A stretch of 45,732 nt of DNA, from NCBI GenBank assembly GCA_021801605.1, contig JAJYXU010000152.1, positions 1 through 45,732 on the forward strand, written 5' to 3'. Of this stretch, positions 2,534-14,165 are shown piece after piece; position 1 is the stretch's first letter, and each line of letters opens with the position of its first letter. The notes under the pieces were generated by a model that was not told where the DNA came from, did not search any database, and saw only the letters and a program-made list of their open reading frames with translations. Both the position numbers and the translations under genes were made by a program. Source of the DNA: Bacteroidota bacterium. GTDB taxonomy: Bacteria; Bacteroidota; Ignavibacteria; Ignavibacteriales; Melioribacteraceae.

Positions 2534-3577
2534 ATGAAAATCAGAACAATAATCGCAGCAATATTTTTAGCGCTTTCGGTTTCTTCGATTGCTAACGCAC
2601 AGTTACAATTAAACGGTGCTGGCGCAACATTTCCAGCGGTAATTTATTCAAAGTGGTTTGATGAATACAAAAACATGACCGGTGTACAATTTAACTATCA
2701 AGCAATTGGTAGCGGCGGTGGAATTAAACAAATCACAGAAGGAACCGTTGATTTTGGCGCCACAGATGGTCCAATGAATGATAAACAATTGAATGAAGCT
2801 AAGTCAAAACAAAAGACTGATATTCTTCATATTCCAACCGTTATGGGTGCTGTAGTTGTTGCATACAACGTACCCGGTGTATCAGGGTTGAACCTTGATG
2901 GGACTACACTTGCAGATATCTTTTTAGGCAAAATTCTTAAATGGAATGATGCCGCTATTAAAAAATTAAATCCAAAATTGAATCTTCCAAACGCAACAAT
3001 CGTAGTTGCTCACCGTTCCGATGGCAGCGGTACATCTTTCATCTTTACGGATTATTTAAGCAAAGTCAGCAAAGAATGGGAAACCAAAGTTGGTAAAGGC
3101 ACTTCCGTAAACTGGCCCGTTGGATTAGGCGGAAAAGGAAATGATGGCGTTGCGGGATTGGTTAAACAAACCGAAGGGGCAATTGGATATGTTGAATTAG
3201 CATACGCAGTCCAAAACAAAATTGCTTATGCCAATATGAAAAATAAAGCGGGAAAATTTGTTGAAGCTACTTTTGAATCTGTAAGTGCTGCAGCAGAAGG
3301 CGCCGCTAAAAATATGCCCGCAGATCTCCGCGTTTCAATTACAGATCCAGACGGTAAAAACTCTTATCCAATCTCCGGATTTACCTGGCTGCTTATTTAT
3401 CAGAATATGAAAGATGAAGCAAAAGCCAGAGCTCTTGTGAAATTCCTGAAATGGGCTATGGGTAAAGGGCAATCATTTGCTACCGAACTTTATTATGCGC
3501 CACTTCCCAAAGCAGTAGCTAAGATGTGCGAAAAGAACATTGCTACAATAACTGCAAATGGAAAAAAAATTAAATAG
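2534..3577 (+). CDS. pstS: Phosphate ABC transporter substrate-binding protein PstS
   Basis: LNGAGATFPAVIYSKWFDEYKNMTGVQFNYQAIGSGGGIKQI...HRSDGSGTSFIFTDYLSKVS motifs. Confidence 0.96.
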   Translation: MKIRTIIAAIFLALSVSSIANAQLQLNGAGATFPAVIYSKWFDEYKNMTGVQFNYQAIGSGGGIKQITEGTVDFGATDGPMNDKQLNEAKSKQKTDILHIPTVMGAVVVAYNVPGVSGLNLDGTTLADIFLGKILKWNDAAIKKLNPKLNLPNATIVVAHRSDGSGTSFIFTDYLSKVSKEWETKVGKGTSVNWPVGLGGKGNDGVAGLVKQTEGAIGYVELAYAVQNKIAYANMKNKAGKFVEATFESVSAAAEGAAKNMPADLRVSITDPDGKNSYPISGFTWLLIYQNMKDEAKARALVKFLKWAMGKGQSFATELYYAPLPKAVAKMCEKNIATITANGKKIK

Positions 3578-3592
3578 TAAACCGGCCTAACT

Positions 3593-4558
3593 GTGAGTAG
3601 TGTAAAAAAGAAATTTGAAAATAATATACTAAAGAAAATATTTTCTTCTCATAATCTTGGTGATCTGATATTCGAAAGACTGACATTGCTGTTTGCGGTG
3701 TCAGTCTTTCTGCTTGTTCTACTGATGGGTTATGAGATGTATCTGGGTTCTAAATTATCTATAGATAAATTTGGCTGGAGTTTTTTAGTCAATTCAACAT
3801 GGGACCCTGTTCAAGAAATATATGGCGCGTTGCCAATCATTTATGGTACAGTTGTTTCTTCATTGCTAGCGTTGATTATTGCTCTGCCGCTCAGTATCGG
3901 AGTAGCAATATATTTGGCGGAAGTAGCACCACCCTGGTTGGAAAAACCTCTTTCATTTCTGGTCGAATTATTAGCAGGTATCCCTAGTGTAATTTATGGT
4001 TTGTGGGGAATATTCGTTTTGGTACCGTGGATTCGTACTGATGTTGAACCTTACCTGTCAGATAAATTAGGTTTCTTGCCATTCTTCAGAGGTGCGCCTT
4101 ATGGATTTGGAATGTTAGCCGCCGTATTAATTCTTTCGATTATGGTTCTACCTATTATTTCATCCATCTCACGCGATGTGCTAAAATCTGTTCCTCACTC
4201 ACAACGTGAAGCAGCATTAGCACTCGGTGCAACAAAATGGCAATCAACAATTATTGTTTTGAAAGATGCAAAGTCAGGTATTCTTGGTGCAACAATGTTA
4301 GGATTGGGACGAGCTATTGGCGAGACAATGGCAGTAACAATGGTAATTGGAAACAGAGCATTAATTTCTCCTTCACTCTTTGATCCATCTTACACAATGG
4401 CAAGTGTAATTGCTAATGAGTTTACCGAAGCAACTTCCGAGATGTACTTGAGCGCATTGATTCAATTAGCATTAGTTTTATTTGTGATAACAATAATTAT
4501 TAATGCGTTCGCGCATCTATTGGTTTGGAGTATGAGTAGAAAATGGAAAACAGCTTAA
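3593..4558 (+). CDS. pstC: Phosphate ABC transporter permease PstC
   Basis: Permease with [22 protein letters not shown] start; between pstS and pstA. Confidence 0.95.
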   Translation: MSSVKKKFENNILKKIFSSHNLGDLIFERLTLLFAVSVFLLVLLMGYEMYLGSKLSIDKFGWSFLVNSTWDPVQEIYGALPIIYGTVVSSLLALIIALPLSIGVAIYLAEVAPPWLEKPLSFLVELLAGIPSVIYGLWGIFVLVPWIRTDVEPYLSDKLGFLPFFRGAPYGFGMLAAVLILSIMVLPIISSISRDVLKSVPHSQREAALALGATKWQSTIIVLKDAKSGILGATMLGLGRAIGETMAVTMVIGNRALISPSLFDPSYTMASVIANEFTEATSEMYLSALIQLALVLFVITIIINAFAHLLVWSMSRKWKTA

Positions 4559-5409
4559 TGAATTCAAAATATTTTTACTATAAAAGAAAACTAACAAGTT
4601 CAATTATGATGTTGTTAACATTTGTCGCTGCGTTAGCTGCTATCATACCGTTGGTTTTCATTTTCTATTACACGATTTCCAAAGGAGTTACTTATCTAAA
4701 TCTTGATTTCTTTATTGCAATGCCAAAACCTGTTGGAGAACCGGGCGGAGGTATGGCAAACGCAATTGTTGGGACACTTATTCTAATTGGAATAGGCGGC
4801 GCCATCGGAATTCCGGTTGGAGTTATGACGGGAACGTATCTATCGGAATTTGGAAACAATAAGTTTGTTTTTTTGGTGAGATTTTTGACGGATGTCTTAA
4901 GTGGTATCCCTTCAATTGTAGTAGGAGTTGTTGCATACACGATGGTTGTTTTACCAATGAAACATTTTTCTGCTTTAGCAGGCGGAATTGCATTAGGAAT
5001 TCTAATGATTCCGACAATCACAAGAACCACGGAAGAGATGATAAAACTTGTCCCTCATTCGTTGCGCGAAGCCGGATTAGCTTTAGGAATCCCTAAATGG
5101 AAAACAACACTCGCAATAATTTTGCGTACAGCATGGAAGGGAATTGCAACAGGCGTATTATTGGGTCTATCAAGAGCCGCAGGAGAGACAGCACCATTAT
5201 TATTTACTGCACTTGGTAATCGTTTCTGGTCAACTAATATTGGTCAGCCAATCGCTTCTCTTACAGTGTACATATATGATTATGCAAAATCTCCGTTCGA
5301 GGATTGGAATCAGCAAGCATGGACTGCTGCACTGGTGCTGATACTTTTAATTTCGGTACTCAGCTTAGTATTCAGAATTATAACTCGATCAAAATATAAA
5401 ACGAATTAG
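4543..5409 (+). CDS. pstA: Phosphate ABC transporter permease PstA
   Basis: VPHSLREAGLALGIPKWKTTLAIILRTAWKGIATGVLLGLSRAAGETAPLLFTA; overlaps pstC by 16 bp. Confidence 0.95.
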   Translation: MENSLMNSKYFYYKRKLTSSIMMLLTFVAALAAIIPLVFIFYYTISKGVTYLNLDFFIAMPKPVGEPGGGMANAIVGTLILIGIGGAIGIPVGVMTGTYLSEFGNNKFVFLVRFLTDVLSGIPSIVVGVVAYTMVVLPMKHFSALAGGIALGILMIPTITRTTEEMIKLVPHSLREAGLALGIPKWKTTLAIILRTAWKGIATGVLLGLSRAAGETAPLLFTALGNRFWSTNIGQPIASLTVYIYDYAKSPFEDWNQQAWTAALVLILLISVLSLVFRIITRSKYKTN

Positions 5410-5424
5410 GTACGTTGAAAGATT

Positions 5425-6174
5425 ATGGAAATAAAATTATCTGTTAAAAATTTAGATGCTTATTACGGTAAGAACAAAGTTCTCAATAATATTTCTCTGA
5501 ATATTCCAAAAAATAAGGTTGTGGCTATTATCGGTCCTTCCGGCTGTGGTAAATCAACATTTATCAGAACTCTGAATCGAATGCATGAAGTAGTTGGCGG
5601 AACAATAAAAGGAGAAATTCTACTAGACGGAGAAGATTTAGCCAAAACTGATCCGGTATTATTACGCAAGAGAATTGGAATGGTTTTTCAAAAACCAAAT
5701 CCATTTCCGACAATGTCCATCTTTAACAATGTTGCAGCCGGTTTGAGATTAAATGGAGTGCGAAATAAAAAGAAATTGACTCCCATTGTTGAAAAGTGTT
5801 TAAAACAAGCGGCGCTTTGGGATGAAGTAAAAAATAATTTGGATGATTCCGGTGCAAACATTTCCGGAGGTCAGCAGCAAAGACTTTGTATCGCTCGTAC
5901 ATTGGCAGTAGATCCTGAAGTTATCTTGATGGATGAACCTGCGAGTGCGCTCGATCCGATCTCTACAACAAAAATAGAAGACTTGATCTTTGAGTTGAAA
6001 AAAGATTATACGATTGTAATTGTAACTCACAACATGCAGCAAGCCGCACGTGTAAGCGACTACACTGCATTTTTCTATATGGGTGAGCTAATTGAATTTT
6101 CCGATACAAAAAAAATGTTTACATCACCCGAGAAACAACAAACCGAAGATTATATCCGGGGTCGGTTCGGATAA
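5425..6174 (+). CDS. pstB: Phosphate ABC transporter ATP-binding protein PstB (canonical copy)
   Basis: Walker [11 protein letters not shown]-loop [11 protein letters not shown], signature ISGGQQQRL, Walker B VILMDEP, H-loop VTHNM. Confidence 0.97.
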
Positions 6175-6190
6175 TAAAAAGGAAAATTTT

Positions 6191-6892
6191 ATGAAAGAAC
6201 ATTTTCAAGAAGAAATAGAAGAATTAAAAAATAATCTTGTTAAAATGGCATCTCTTGTTGATGAACAAGTTGATAAAGTTATTACTGCTCTGGAAACCGG
6301 CAACATCGAATTATGCAAAGGAGTTAAATCGAAAGATCTGGAAATAGATGCTTATGATAATTTGATTACAACTCAGTGTGAAAATGTTCTCGCGTTATTC
6401 CAGCCGGTTGCAGTTGATTTAAGATTAGTAATGTCGGTGATAATGATCAACAACAATTTAGAACGCTGCGGAGATATTGCGGTAAATATTTCTCAAAGAG
6501 TTAAAAAAGCCGGTAGCGAACGTTCTCTGGTTGTTGAGTCTCAAATTATTGATATGGCGCGTACTGCTCAATCTATGCTTAAAGATGCGATTGATTCATT
6601 TATTAAAAATGATACAGAGCTTGCAAGTAAAGTTATTTCAAGCGATGAAAAGGTTGATAATCTGAATAAACAAATATTCAATTTTCTTGTTTCAAAAATG
6701 CAGTCGAACCAGGAATTAATTGAAGCTTGTACTCATCTTGTTGTGATGTCTCGTCACATTGAACGAATGGCAGATCACGCAACAAACATTGCCGAGAACT
6801 TAGTCTTTTACGTTGAAGCAAAAATAATTGCGCATAAAAAAAAACTTGAAAGATATAAAGATACTAATGATGGAAAAGATAAAATTGTTTAG
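6191..6892 (+). CDS. phoU: Phosphate signalling complex protein PhoU (copy 1)
   Basis: Two PhoU-like repeats with LERCGDIAVNI and IERMADHATNIAENLVF; likely ATG at 6191 rather than the longer ORF start at 6092, which overlaps pstB. Confidence 0.93.
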   Translation: MKEHFQEEIEELKNNLVKMASLVDEQVDKVITALETGNIELCKGVKSKDLEIDAYDNLITTQCENVLALFQPVAVDLRLVMSVIMINNNLERCGDIAVNISQRVKKAGSERSLVVESQIIDMARTAQSMLKDAIDSFIKNDTELASKVISSDEKVDNLNKQIFNFLVSKMQSNQELIEACTHLVVMSRHIERMADHATNIAENLVFYVEAKIIAHKKKLERYKDTNDGKDKIV

Positions 6893-6950
6893 TGTACAAT
6901 CACATGATATTCTTGGCGAATTATTTTTAAGTGACCTCTGAAAAATTAAG

Positions 6951-7037
6951 AATAGCACACTGATGGCGCAGATTAAACGGATTCACACAGATTTAATCAG
7001 CGAAAATCTGCCAAATCCGCGTCATCCGCGTGCTATT
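6951..7037. repeat. Imperfect palindromic intergenic repeat (AATAGCAC...GTGCTATT ends)
   Basis: The terminal 24 bp pair with 4 mismatches: AATAGCACACTGATGGCGCAGATT against the reverse complement of AATCCGCGTCATCCGCGTGCTATT. Confidence 0.8.
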
Positions 7038-7159
7038 AAAAAAGTTGCCATTCTATGATAGATAATCCTATTTTTCAAAAGTCCCTTTTAACTAAATAGT
7101 AAACTTCTGTTACTTCAAGATTAATCACTTTACTGCAATTTTCTAAGAGAACAAACTTC

Positions 7160-7910
7160 CAGGGGCAACATATCCTATATAATCATTTAAAGCTTCTAAA
7201 TCCGGAATCATTGCAAGTATAATTCTTGGGATGGGACGTGCCATTGGCGAAACGATGGCAGTTATTATGGTTGCAGGAAATTCGGTGAATATACCACATT
7301 CTCCGCAACACCATTAGGAATTTTCACATCGGTTTATCTTTCCGAATATACTAAAGAAACAAAAGCAACAAGAATAATTCGATTTGGAACAGATTGTCTT
7401 GCCGGAATTCCATCGATCATTTTTGGTTTATTCGGTTATATATTTTTTGTGGTTACACTTGAATTTGGATGGTCTATTCTTTCCGGCGGATTGACATTAG
7501 CGGTTATGATTTTGCCGACTATAATCCGTACATCGGAAGAAGCAATTAGAGCAGTACCAAAATCTTATCGTGAAGTCAGCTTCTCTCTGGGTGCCACAAG
7601 CTGGCAGACAGTCAAAAAAGTAATTTTGCCAAATGCGCTTCCGGGCATTGTAACCGGCGTTATGCTTAGCATTGGTCGTGCGATAGGAGAGACTGCCGCA
7701 GTGATATTTACCGCCGGATCTTCATTACGGATTCCAAGTTCAATTTTCGATTCGACACGTACAATGGCGGTTCATTTTTATATTTTAGCACGTGAAGGAA
7801 TTTCAGCAGAGAATGCTTACAGTACCGCCGCTACACTTATAATTGCTGTACTGATGGTTAATCTTTCAGCTTACTGGCTGATGCACCGTTTTATCGCAAA
7901 GAGAAGTTAA
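7160..7910 (+). pseudogene. Degenerate pstC-pstA remnant (second pst locus)
   Basis: 7162-7314 translates to [46 protein letters not shown] (PstC C-terminal motifs with a stop), then a frame change into [13 protein letters not shown]...AGIPSIIFG...GRAIGETAAVIFTAG (PstA). The only intact ORF is 7449-7910. Confidence 0.85.
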
Positions 7911-7923
7911 ATTTATTGGTCAA

Positions 7924-8682
7924 TTGATGAAGATAAAATTTCACATAAAAGATATGGACTTATTTTTCAATGCAGAAAAAGTTTTAAAACGGGTTAATTT
8001 TGAAATACATGCCAATAAGATTTTGGGAATCATTGGACCATCGGGTTCCGGTAAAACTACCTTCTTAAGAGCACTAAATCGTATGAACGATTTGGAAGAT
8101 GGGACACGAATCGAAGGGAAAATTTTATTGGATGAAGAAGACATTTACAAACCGGATTATGATGTTGTTGCATTACGGAAAAAAGTCGGAATGGTCTTTG
8201 CAATGCCCGTTCCGTTACCAATGAGTATTTATGAAAATGTTGTTTATGGCGTGCGTCTATCAGGTGTTAACGATTCAAAGCGATTGGATGAATTGGTGGA
8301 AAAAAGTTTAACCGATTCATACCTTTGGGACGAAGTCAAAGACCGTTTAAGAACCTCAGGGATGAGACTTTCTGGCGGGCAGCAGCAACGGCTCTGTCTT
8401 GCGCGGGTGCTTGCAATGGAACCAGATGTGATTCTTCTTGACGAACCTTGTTCCGGATTGGATCCAATTTCAACTGCTAAGATAGAAGATGCACTTACAG
8501 TTCTGAAAAAAAATTATACAATTATTTTAGTAACCAACAATACTAAACAGGCAGCAAGAGTAGCGGATAATACAGCATTCTTCTTGATGGGTGAGTTGAT
8601 TGAAATAGGTTCAACAGAACAAATTTTTACTACTCCTAACAGAACCGAAACAAGTGATTACATTACAGGAAGGTTCGGCTGA
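7924..8682 (+). CDS. pstB: PstB-family ATP-binding protein, copy 2 (Q-loop Gln and H-switch His substituted)
   Basis: Walker [10 protein letters not shown] and LSGGQQQRL intact; Q-loop reads [11 protein letters not shown] and H-loop reads VTNNT; likely ATG at 7927. Confidence 0.93.
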
Positions 8683-9458
8683 TGACGGGAATGAAAACGG
8701 TTGCACAAAATAAAATTGAGATTGATAAGCTGGATCTATTCTATGGTAAATTCCAAGCGCTAATATCAGTGAATATGTCTGTCCAGCAAAAAATGATTAC
8801 TGCATTGATTGGTCCCTCGGGTTGTGGCAAATCAACATTGTTGCGCAGCTTAAACCGGATGAATGATTTAATCCACGGAGTTAAAATAACGGGAGGTGTT
8901 CTTCTTGATGAGATAGATATTTATCATTCATCTTTGGAAGTTGCCGAGTTAAGAAAAAGAGTAGGAATGGTTTTTCAGCGACCCAATCCGTTTCCACTTT
9001 CGATTTATGATAATGTTGTCTATGGACTTAGAATTGCCGGTATAAGGAACAAGAAAGAATCCGATGAGATTGCAGAAAGAAGTTTAAGAGGTGCATGGCT
9101 TTGGGATCAAGTGAAAGATAAACTCGATCATCCTGCATTGGAATTACCTCTGGATCAGCAGCAGCGTTTATGTATTGCACGTTTATTAGCCGTTCAACCG
9201 GAAGTTATTTTAATGGACGAACCATGCTCAGCTCTGGATCCAATTGCAACAATGAAGATTGAAGAGTTGATGTTAGACCTGAAAAAGAATTATACTATTG
9301 TTATAGTAACTCACAATATGCAGCAGGCTTCACGTGTATCGGATTTTACTGGCTACATGTTATTGGGAGAGATGATTGAATTTAATCAAACAAAAAGTAT
9401 ATTTACAAATCCATCAAAAAAATTAACTGAAGATTATATTTCGGGAAAGTACGGCTAA
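8682..9458 (+). CDS. pstB: PstB-family ATP-binding protein, copy 3 (ABC signature substituted)
   Basis: Walker [11 protein letters not shown]-loop [11 protein letters not shown] and H-loop VTHNM intact; signature position reads LPLDQQQRL instead of LSGGQQQRL; start overlaps the copy 2 stop codon. Confidence 0.93.
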
Positions 9459-9472
9459 AAAAGGAAGGGCTT

Positions 9473-10165
9473 ATGCAAGAAAATTTCAATCAACAGATAG
9501 AAAATTTGAAAATAAATCTGATTAAGATGGCTTCGCTTGTAGATGAACAAGCAGAAAGAGCTTTTACTGCGTTAGAAACCGGTAATGTTGAATTATGCCG
9601 CGGAATAAAAGCCAAAGAACTAGAGGTGAATATATATGATAACCTTATTCAGACTCAGTGTGAAAATATTCTGGCTCTTTTCCAACCTGTTGCTGTCGAT
9701 CTGCGCTTCATAATATCTGTGATGATGATTAACAATCAGTTAGAAAGATGCGGCGATATCGCTGTGAACATTGCGCAGCGAGTTAAGAAAACCGATGAAC
9801 ATCATTCACTTATTGCTGAGACACAAATTTTAGAAATGGGAAGACAAGCGCGCGAAATGTTGAAAAATGCTATTGATTCATTTATTAACAGCAACATTGA
9901 TCTTGCCAATAAAGTAATTGACAATGATGAAAGTGTGGACAAGTTGAATAAACAAATTTTCAAAGAACTTGTTCTTAAAATGCAAAATGAACCGTTGCTT
10001 ATTGAACCGTGCGCTCACTTGATAGTTTTAACGCGTCATATTGAAAGGTTGGCTGACCATGCGACAAACATTGCAGAGAATTTGGTTTTCTATGTGAACG
10101 CAAGAATCATTGCTCACAAGAAAAAGTTTGAAAAATGGGGCATAAGTGACCAAACAATCGAATAA
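9473..10165 (+). CDS. phoU: PhoU family protein (copy 2)
   Basis: LERCGDIAVNIAQRVKK and IERLADHATNIAENLVF; close paralog of 6191-6892. Confidence 0.93.
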   Translation: MQENFNQQIENLKINLIKMASLVDEQAERAFTALETGNVELCRGIKAKELEVNIYDNLIQTQCENILALFQPVAVDLRFIISVMMINNQLERCGDIAVNIAQRVKKTDEHHSLIAETQILEMGRQAREMLKNAIDSFINSNIDLANKVIDNDESVDKLNKQIFKELVLKMQNEPLLIEPCAHLIVLTRHIERLADHATNIAENLVFYVNARIIAHKKKFEKWGISDQTIE

Positions 10166-11461: not shown

Positions 11462-11602
11462 TTCTCTTTTTTAAGAAAAGACTTTCCATTTCTTCCCAAA
11501 ATATTTCAATTATATTCGTATTCTACCGATAATATTGCTGGTATATTTATTGCTTTACCTAGTCAACTAAAATAAATTAAACTCTACTTGCGGAGACACA
11601 CC

Positions 11603-12985
11603 ATGGAATTTATTGACGAATCTTATATTGCTTCCCTAATTGATGATGCCGGACTTAATGATCATGCACTTCAGAGGGAAGCGATTCAGAAATCAAAAGA
11701 AGCAAGAGGTTTAACGCTGAGCGAGAGCGCCGCTCTTCTCAATATTAATGACCCGGAGATAGCCGAAGAACTTTTTCACACAGCACGAGAAGTTAAAGAA
11801 AAAATTTACGGTAACCGTTTGGTTTTGTTCGCCCCGCTTTACATTACTAATCTTTGCATCAACAATTGTTTGTATTGTGCATTTCGTAAAGATAATAAAG
11901 AATTAAAACGCAAAACTCTTACCTTAGACGAGATCAAAGGTGAGACGGAATTTTTAGTTAAGCAGGGGCACAAAAGAGTTTTACTTGTCTGTGGTGAGCA
12001 TCCGAAAAAATCGAGTATGGAATTTATCGGTGAAGCAATTAAAACAATTTACGATGTAAATTTTAATGGCGGTAATATCCGCCGTATTAATGCAAACACT
12101 GCGCCGTTGAGCATAGCAGATTTTAAAACTTTAAAAAGTTTTGGCATAGGGACTTATCAATGCTTTCAGGAAACTTATCATTACAAAACATATATGCAGA
12201 TGCACCCCGATGGACCCAAGAGGGATTACGCATGGCGGTTATTTGCTATGGACCGTGCACTTCAAGCCGGTATTGACGATGTTGGTATCGGAGCATTATT
12301 CGGTCTAACAGATTACAAATTTGAAACTCTTGCAATGCTAAACCATGCATTTAATCTCGATCAAAGATTCGGTGTTGGTCCTCACACAATTTCGGTACCG
12401 CGAATCGAACCGGCGTTCAATGCGCCTGCTTCTGATAATCCGCCCTTTGCGGTTGATGACGCTTCGTTCAAAAAAATAATTGCAATAATACGTCTCGCTG
12501 TTCCATATACAGGCATAATTTTATCCACACGTGAACGTGCAGAATTACGCCGTGATCTTTTCAAAGTCGGTATTTCACAAATTAGTGCAGGCAGCAGAAC
12601 TTCTCCCGGAGCTTATATAGAATCGGAAGAGAATCATGAGATGGAACAATTCCAGCTTGGAGATCACCGAACGCTTGACGAGGTTGTAAAGGATTGTTGT
12701 GAATTAGGATTCTTGCCGAGTTTTTGCACAGCTTGTTATCGTTCGGAACGTACCGGCGACCGTTTTATGGAATTAGCTAAAAGTGGAAATATCGGAAAGT
12801 TATGCGTACCAAATGCACTTTCAACATTCAAAGAATATGCAAATGATTTTGCATCTGTAGAAACTAAAGAAACTGCCGATAAATTTGTCATAAAAGAAAT
12901 TGAAAGATTAGACGGCGCAACAAAACGTAAAACTGATGAGATGATCCAGAGAGTCAACAGCGGAGAACGGGATGTTTTCTTTTAA
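11603..12985 (+). CDS. hydG: [FeFe] hydrogenase H-cluster radical SAM maturase HydG
   Basis: Radical SAM CINNCLYC plus C-terminal CTACYRSERTGDRFMELAKSGNIGKLC (CX2CX22C), specific to HydG. Confidence 0.93.
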   Translation: MEFIDESYIASLIDDAGLNDHALQREAIQKSKEARGLTLSESAALLNINDPEIAEELFHTAREVKEKIYGNRLVLFAPLYITNLCINNCLYCAFRKDNKELKRKTLTLDEIKGETEFLVKQGHKRVLLVCGEHPKKSSMEFIGEAIKTIYDVNFNGGNIRRINANTAPLSIADFKTLKSFGIGTYQCFQETYHYKTYMQMHPDGPKRDYAWRLFAMDRALQAGIDDVGIGALFGLTDYKFETLAMLNHAFNLDQRFGVGPHTISVPRIEPAFNAPASDNPPFAVDDASFKKIIAIIRLAVPYTGIILSTRERAELRRDLFKVGISQISAGSRTSPGAYIESEENHEMEQFQLGDHRTLDEVVKDCCELGFLPSFCTACYRSERTGDRFMELAKSGNIGKLCVPNALSTFKEYANDFASVETKETADKFVIKEIERLDGATKRKTDEMIQRVNSGERDVFF

Positions 12986-12987
12986 TA

Positions 12988-13104
12988 TGTCATTCTGAGT
13001 CTCGCTTTAGCGAGGCGAAGAATCTCTTGCTCAGAAAAAGCCTGAGAATCTTCTGAAGGGATGTCTTCAGCATTCTTCCCGACAAAACTAGATTCAGAAT
13101 GACA
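12988..13104. repeat. TGTCATTCTGA-type palindromic repeat between hydG and hydE
   Basis: Perfect 11-bp terminal inverted repeat TGTCATTCTGA (12988-12998) / TCAGAATGACA (13094-13104). Confidence 0.85.
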
Positions 13105-13118
13105 ATACAATAGTAATT

Positions 13119-14165
13119 ATGAACCTCAATGAAATATTACATAAAGAGAATCTGACGAGAGAAGAAATTATTTTTCTTCTTAATCTTACCGATAAGAAAG
13201 ATCAGCAAATTCTTTTTGATCGTGCAGATGAAGTGCGGACACAATATTGCGGCAATGAAGTGCATCTTCGCGGAATTATTGAACTCTCAAATTATTGCGA
13301 ACAGAATTGTATCTATTGCGGATTGAGGGAAGATAATCATAAGCTCCAGCGTTACCGGATGACACCGGAAGAAATAATTGAGACAGCGCACGTTATTTCC
13401 AATCTTGGAATTTATACTGTTGTTCTACAATCGGGAGAAGATCATCAATTTGATACTGCCATGATTGCATATATTATCTATGAGATCAAACAAAAAGCTG
13501 AACTTGCAGTTACGTTAAGTCTTGGAGAGAGGGGATTTGATGAATACCGCGCATGGAAAATGGCAGGTGCCGACCGTTATTTATTGAAACATGAAACTGC
13601 AAATCCAAAGCTCTACTCGATTTATCATAATAAACAAAATTTGGATGACCGGCTTGCACATTTGAGATTTTTAAAAACGATCGGCTATCAAATCGGGTCG
13701 GGCAATATGATTGGACTCCCTTTACAGACGATCGAAGACATTGCCGATGATATTCTGCTGTGTAAAGAACTTGATCTTGATATGGCTGCCTTCGGTCCGT
13801 TTATCTCTTCACCGGAAACTCCTTACCGAAGTAAATCTGCCGGCGACGTTGATTTAACTTTGCGCGTTATGGCTGTTGGAAGAATTGTTTTGAAACAAGT
13901 TCATATTCCAGCTACAACAGCTCTGGCTACGTTAGATGATGCTGGACGTATAAAAGGTTTGAATGTAGGTGCCAATATTATTATGCCGGATTTAACACCG
14001 AGCCCATATAGAGAGCGGTATCAAATTTATCCGGATAGAAAATGTATTAATGATAATCCCCTAAACTGTAAAGGATGCCTGCAATTGCAAATTGAATCAA
14101 TAGGAAGAAAAATTTCAAATAGCAGGGGAGATTCGATGAAAATAGGTGAGCATTCCCGCGCATAA
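13119..14165 (+). CDS. hydE: [FeFe] hydrogenase H-cluster radical SAM maturase HydE
   Basis: Radical SAM CEQNCIYCGLREDN and C-terminal CINDNPLNCKGC (CX7CX2C), as in HydE proteins with the second cluster. Confidence 0.92.
   Translation: MNLNEILHKENLTREEIIFLLNLTDKKDQQILFDRADEVRTQYCGNEVHLRGIIELSNYCEQNCIYCGLREDNHKLQRYRMTPEEIIETAHVISNLGIYTVVLQSGEDHQFDTAMIAYIIYEIKQKAELAVTLSLGERGFDEYRAWKMAGADRYLLKHETANPKLYSIYHNKQNLDDRLAHLRFLKTIGYQIGSGNMIGLPLQTIEDIADDILLCKELDLDMAAFGPFISSPETPYRSKSAGDVDLTLRVMAVGRIVLKQVHIPATTALATLDDAGRIKGLNVGANIIMPDLTPSPYRERYQIYPDRKCINDNPLNCKGCLQLQIESIGRKISNSRGDSMKIGEHSRA

Follow-up and report, generated by a model that had tools for sequence, protein, structure and literature searches.

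Pst is a textbook phosphate importer. Here we describe a conserved asymmetric Pst ATPase pair, encoded by two adjacent genes (pstB2 and pstB3) that divide the motifs of an ABC ATPase between them. The two proteins very probably act together as an obligate heterodimeric ATPase that drives a Pst-type importer and has two unlike ATP sites, one consensus and one degenerate. The conservation of the matched pair suggests a widespread phosphate importer in which one ATP site works and the other is broken.

Two pst operons in one window

The window, by which we mean the whole stretch of DNA analysed (45,732 nucleotides), carries two pst operons with the following features.

2534..6892, + strand: first operon, complete, pstS-pstC-pstA-pstB1-phoU, with the canonical PstB1 inside
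2534-3577: pstS of the first operon
5425-6174: pstB1 (copy 1), every motif kept, signature ISGGQ
7187..7304, + strand: pstC2 remnant, C-terminal part of an incomplete gene (blastn against the G006 and G001 loci)
7305..7910, + strand: pstA2 remnant, approximately codon 84 to the end, frame open, no N-terminus
7927..8682, + strand: pstB2 (copy 2), Walker A/B and LSGGQ intact, A92 at the Q-loop, N204 at the H-loop, D-loop SGLD
8680..8684, + strand: TGATG, in which the stop codon of pstB2 and the start codon of pstB3 overlap
8682..9458, + strand: pstB3 (copy 3), Walker A/B, Q-loop and H-loop kept; D158 replaces the second Gly of the signature, which reads LPLDQ
9473..10165, + strand: phoU2, last gene of the second pst operon, 67% identical to phoU1

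An earlier note, made from the letters of the window, had placed copy 2 at 7924-8682; the gene itself stands, and the ATG at 7927 is a likelier start than the TTG at 7924. The full motif set that it ascribed to copy 1 and the overlap that it described at the junction of copies 2 and 3 are both there, and the overlap is consistent with translational coupling. Elsewhere in the window, positions 340-1266 encode a secreted protein with a C-terminus (YPNPFNPTTTI...) resembling a type IX secretion sorting domain, and positions 11588-14165 hold two neighbouring radical-SAM genes resembling HydG and HydE of [FeFe]-hydrogenase maturation, both as judged by inspection only.

PstB2 retains Walker A/B and LSGGQ, and has Ala in place of the Q-loop Gln and Asn in place of the H-loop His (VTNNT). 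PstB3 retains Walker A/B, the Q-loop and the H-loop (VTHNM), and its signature reads LPLDQ. The catalytic Glu is E173 in PstB2 and E180 in PstB3. In a gap-free alignment with E. coli PstB (PDB 9k3x), A92 and N204 of PstB2 correspond to Q98 and H210, and D158 of PstB3 corresponds to G157, the second Gly of LSGGQ. The strings that the earlier note had read in both copies are present where it put them, and for copy 2 the alignment agrees with the motif states that it assigned. Neither PstB2 nor PstB3 holds by itself the full ABC ATPase motif set that each subunit has in a homodimer with two equal sites. Both score above the curated PstB cut-off of TIGR00972 (343.2 bits), PstB2 at 364.7 bits and PstB3 at 382.8 bits, and because this model labels both proteins as plain PstB the asymmetric form is invisible in annotation.

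Complementary motif states across PstB pairs

Proteins with the motif states of PstB2 and PstB3 are referred to below as type 2 and type 3. As the E-value alone separates type 3 poorly, with some canonical PstBs scoring equally high, motif states were read directly. Of the 107 PstB pairs that are distinct, adjacent and on the same strand, 101 are complementary, and in each of these type 2 precedes type 3; the remaining six are doubly canonical. The complementary pattern that the earlier note expected to see in relatives, always as a pair, is thus found, and the independent, non-complementary losses that it held would speak against a heterodimer do not occur: no non-complementary or mixed-state pair is present among the 107. 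Likewise, across 339 distinct PstB sequences, no protein carries both kinds of loss (altered Q/H together with an altered signature), and H to N accompanies the Q-loop change in 112 of 112 cases. Most of the collection was gathered with type-2 or type-3 profiles as seeds, so this absence of mixed states, though strong, is no unbiased census.

Within the 101 complementary pairs, the H position of type 2 is always Asn and the Q position is occupied by Ala in 100, the exception being a Glu (FEMPIPLP at locus L232, genome G1357, the sole type 2 of this kind). Every type 2 keeps the Walker A Lys (GK[ST]), the Walker B Asp and the catalytic Glu. At the position of the second signature Gly, type 3 has Glu or Asp in all 101, the commonest signatures being LTLEQ (29), LSLEQ (28), LPLDQ (12), LTGEQ (7) and LSEEM (7), and the Walker B Asp-Glu is retained throughout. 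A composite site with every consensus motif can be built in each of the 101 pairs from Walker A/B, Q and H of PstB3 and LSGGQ of PstB2; the opposite site combines an acidic second signature Gly position with the lost Q-loop Gln and H to N. Replacement of the catalytic Glu at the degenerate site, which is common though not universal in heterodimeric ABC transporters, is absent from all 101. Two pairs from the WOR-1 phylum (L216, L218) show further variation, the type 3 having DEI for DEP after Walker B and the type 2 having the canonical SALD rather than SGLD.

Distribution and descent

When the genome of the window and 38 relatives (39 genomes in all) were searched for the PstB family, such tandem PstBs turned up in seven members of the window's genus, counting its own genome, and in five genomes from another family of the order. 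All readable pairs of the relatives are alike, with FAMPV, LSGGQ and VTNN upstream and FQRPNPFP, L-x-L-D-Q and VTHN downstream. Two genomes of the window's family (G016 and G018; loci L049 and L050) have a separate, doubly canonical pstB tandem in their main pst operon.

A scan of GTDB genome contigs recovered the same pair in records titled Aminicenantes, Elusimicrobia, planctomycete, WOR-1 and Syntrophorhabdus, and complementary pairs span at least six phylum-level groups. In whole-genome profile searches, matches were obtained in 53 of 150 genomes for the phylum of the Elusimicrobia record, 21 of 74 for that of the WOR-1 record, 10 of 297 for that of the Aminicenantes record, 12 of 297 for that of the Syntrophorhabdus record and 5 of 396 for the window's own phylum; the type-3 profile matched 2 of 246 genomes in the phylum of the planctomycete record. 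Each of these phylum counts is a lower bound, because the searches covered samples of genomes and applied a strict threshold.

A tree built from 243 dereplicated PstBs places types 2 and 3 each on one side of a branch, with SH-aLRT values of 100 and 99, and each type is still one clade when the motif columns are removed (96 for type 2 and 94 for type 3). The simplest reading of the tree is that each motif state arose once and has since been kept, so that the more than 100 pairs would not be independent events. Over 87 dereplicated pairs, the distance matrix of one protein is correlated with that of the other (r = 0.84; none of 2,000 permutations reached this value). Such a correlation would arise between partners or between genes that are passed on together, and it partly reflects shared history.

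Membrane partners and split operons

The complete operon, present in relatives and in other phyla, runs pstS-pstC-pstA-pstB2-pstB3, usually with phoU last; in two Syntrophorhabdus-type loci (L251, L258) phoU precedes pstS2 rather than closing the operon. Relatives with covering contigs have full-length pstC2 and pstA2 of the pair's own, approximately 35–42% identical to those of the first operon, and a divergent pstS2 accompanies the pair in the relatives where this was examined.

The window departs from this arrangement: its second operon (6893-7910) lacks pstS2 and the greater part of pstC2 and has remnants of pstC2 and pstA2, a breakage missing from the earlier account of this DNA. A 46-residue stretch of the pstC2 remnant matches a relative's PstC2 at 85% identity, with one TAA within the match, and a 396-bp deletion relative to G006 joins the pstC2 fragment to codon 84 of pstA2. 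The rest of the window's 99.99% complete genome yielded no intact pstC2, and the PstC and PstA of the first operon are the only intact ones found in this genome. The pstA2 remnant still has a dN/dS of 0.02–0.04 against relatives, and the deletion is therefore either very recent or an assembly fault. At the expected place of pstS2 and pstC2, approximately 260 bases (6925-7186) have no match in the three relatives compared; within them, CAAATCCGCGTCATCCGCG at 7012 resembles a dispersed repeat and is present as a single copy in the window. The earlier proposal that the pair might use the PstC and PstA of the first operon does not fit relatives with the complete operon, which have their own divergent pstC2-pstA2, and survives as one option in the window's genome.

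The membrane proteins beside type 2 differ from those beside canonical PstB in the EAA motif of the coupling helix. In PstA, a Ser precedes LG in 73 of 82 proteins beside type 2 compared with 1 of 44 beside canonical PstB, and in PstC a Gly follows the Glu (E-G) in 75 of 83 compared with 2 of 34. These differences may reflect co-adaptation at the face that meets the Q-loop, or shared ancestry.

Nine Elusimicrobiota loci have type 2 without type 3 in the stretch examined. A whole-genome search located a type 3 with an acidic signature elsewhere in eight of the nine genomes (G1371, G1317, G1311, G1323, G1331, G1267, G1391 and G1353); in G1391 and G1353 type 2 lies near a contig end, which makes its true separation from type 3 uncertain, and in G1311 the two are approximately 15 kb apart on one contig. 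In the ninth (G1383), type 2 and a canonical PstB were found and type 3 was not, the contig ending after an inserted methyltransferase cassette. Hence, we rejected the idea that type 2 occurs alone. Such a DNA-methyltransferase-like cassette, probably of a restriction-modification system, lies immediately 3' of pstB2 at two loci, L237 (G1383) and L222 (G1285), and in L222 it sits between pstB2 and pstB3.

When the operon splits, phoU stays with type 3 and type 2 stays with pstS-pstC-pstA. In five of the genomes (G1371, G1317, G1311, G1323 and G1331), no PstB besides type 2 and type 3 was found, and pstS2-pstC2-pstA2 is present as well; if Pst works in these organisms, its ATPase must be built from the two. 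An unlinked or distant pair that supplies the only PstBs found in five Elusimicrobiota genomes is the strongest sign that the two proteins would function jointly.

Alternative explanations

That the tandem consists of decaying duplicates or assembly errors is next to inconceivable, even though pstC2 and pstA2 are broken and pstS2 is gone beside it in the window's genome. Both genes have full open frames, relatives and members of at least five other phylum-level groups carry matching substitutions, and dN/dS in the window's genus and order is 0.03–0.06 for pstB2 and 0.04–0.08 for pstB3, compared with 0.02–0.04 for pstB1. The elevated dN/dS in both genes that the earlier note would have taken as contrary evidence is not seen, and its concern over assembly errors is answered by the same substitutions recurring across the 101 complementary pairs. 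With 101 of 107 distinct adjacent pairs sharing these states, chance and sequencing error are excluded as well. It is also very unlikely that the proteins form homodimers, or pair with the canonical PstB1, and that their motif losses are tolerated specialisations instead of complementary ones. Several genomes do encode a canonical PstB as well (the window's, G414 and G417), and the tandem PstBs of E. faecalis have partly separate functions (PMC12096839), but in a homodimer of type 2 both sites would be without Q and H, and in one of type 3 both would carry the acidic signature. Moreover, no other PstB was found in the five genomes above, and across the 101 adjacent pairs and the split genomes neither type is seen without the other except in G1383, with its broken contig.

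The pair could instead be a regulatory or sensing module with PhoU, in which a slow heterodimer, holding nucleotide most of the time, would inform PhoU and the Pho pathway of Pst occupancy. The placing of phoU after type 3 in most loci, and its staying there when the operon splits, would suit this role, as would the window's genome, in which pstB2, pstB3 and phoU2 are intact while pstC2 and pstA2 are broken. We nevertheless consider it unlikely, given that the usual operon carries full-length pstS2, pstC2 and pstA2, that type 2 travels with pstS-pstC-pstA in split operons, and that in genomes where the pair are the only PstBs found it must also power import, if Pst works. An obligate heterodimer that powers import is the reading we prefer.

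Proposed mechanism

In an ABC dimer, each site is formed by Walker A/B, Q and H of one subunit and the signature of the other (PMC7756269). In a head-to-tail NBD dimer, Walker A/B, the Q-loop and the H-loop of PstB3 would thus meet LSGGQ of PstB2 in a consensus site that hydrolyses ATP. The other site would bring the Walker A of PstB2, with Q to A and H to N, to the acidic signature of PstB3, placing an acidic residue where the second signature Gly would face the gamma-phosphate; this degenerate site probably binds nucleotide and hydrolyses it poorly or not at all. From the motif pattern we infer a physical heterodimer with one hydrolytic site and approximately one ATP per cycle, and the gene family and operon point to phosphate as the substrate. 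H to N alone need not kill a site, since NBS2 of MRP1, with Asn at its H-loop, retains wild-type-like transport (PMC7756269); given this tolerance and the retained catalytic Glu of PstB2, the second site may still hydrolyse slowly. The PstB2-PstB3 heterodimer would be placed under a PstC2/PstA2 heterodimer with its distinctive coupling helices. In the window's genome, where pstS2, pstC2 and pstA2 are lost or broken, the pair would have lost its membrane partner very recently or would work with PstC1/PstA1.

More tentatively, an old lineage of phosphate importers might run on a single hydrolytic site, with the second site kept as a non-hydrolysing nucleotide clamp or sensor, a possibility that we hold to be somewhat doubtful. 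If true, single-site import may cost approximately one ATP per phosphate rather than two, or be gated differently, and could be of advantage to anaerobes that grow slowly under energy limitation. The role of a degenerate ATP site has so far been argued mainly in exporters, and the pair, if confirmed as a heterodimer, would offer a compact importer with separate, exchangeable NBD genes in which to test it. The answer bears on the number of ATP molecules that a binding-protein importer needs per substrate, and genomes that lack any other PstB are a natural test that one consensus site suffices.

Comparison with known systems

The system is closest in composition to E. coli PstSCAB (PDB 9k3x/9k3y/9k3s; TIGR00972), with which it shares the gap-free PstB alignment, scores above the family cut-off for both proteins and the operon genes pstS, pstC, pstA and phoU. 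In E. coli a single pstB gene holds all motifs, whereas here they are divided between two genes, so that two identical consensus sites cannot form. Tandem pstB genes in a pst operon are also known from Firmicutes, as in E. faecalis (PstB1/PstB2, PMC12096839) and B. subtilis (PstBA/PstBB, PMC11466899). The two E. faecalis proteins have unequal roles (PMC12096839), but, in contrast to the present pair, each has all four of the motifs that were checked (Walker A, Walker B, LSGGQ and H-loop). The four Firmicute tandem pairs in our collection (L105, L127, L129 and L134) are doubly canonical, and none of 250 Bacillota genomes has a match to the type-2 profile, a profile that matched other phyla and had no positive control within Bacillota. 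We therefore rejected the Bacillota tandems as instances of the same thing. The DppDF peptide importer likewise combines two different NBD genes with two different membrane subunits, but DppD and DppF each hydrolyse ATP and single E-to-Q mutants are active, so both sites work (PMC12136057).

In the literature searched, the scope of which left out most subscription papers and all preprints, we found no description of a phosphate importer with split, complementary NBD motifs. The earlier note had tied the layout with one degenerate site to asymmetric exporters; it does occur there, but the limit to exporters is too narrow, given that the importer ATPases RbsA and NupO are also reported to have one degenerate ATP site (PMC11466899). 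These differ from PstB2-PstB3 in that both NBDs lie in one chain, the importer is of another type and the Walker A Lys is lost, whereas it is kept here (PMC11466899). The heterodimeric exporters TM287/288, TAP, BmrCD and Pdr5 share with the pair the combination of one consensus composite site and one degenerate site with a changed signature (PMC7756269). In Pdr5, transport was abolished when the degenerate site was fully restored (PMC7756269). Their membrane domains are fused to the NBDs and their degenerate site usually lacks the catalytic Glu, whereas PstB2 and PstB3 keep the Glu and are separate importer NBDs of approximately 250 aa, with no exporter-type (type IV fold) membrane domain attached and with PstC and PstA encoded by separate genes. 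The likeness nevertheless extends to the residue level, as the degenerate signature of the yeast exporter Pdr5, LNVEQ, has its Glu at the same place as the acidic residue of LSLEQ and LPLDQ (PMC7756269).
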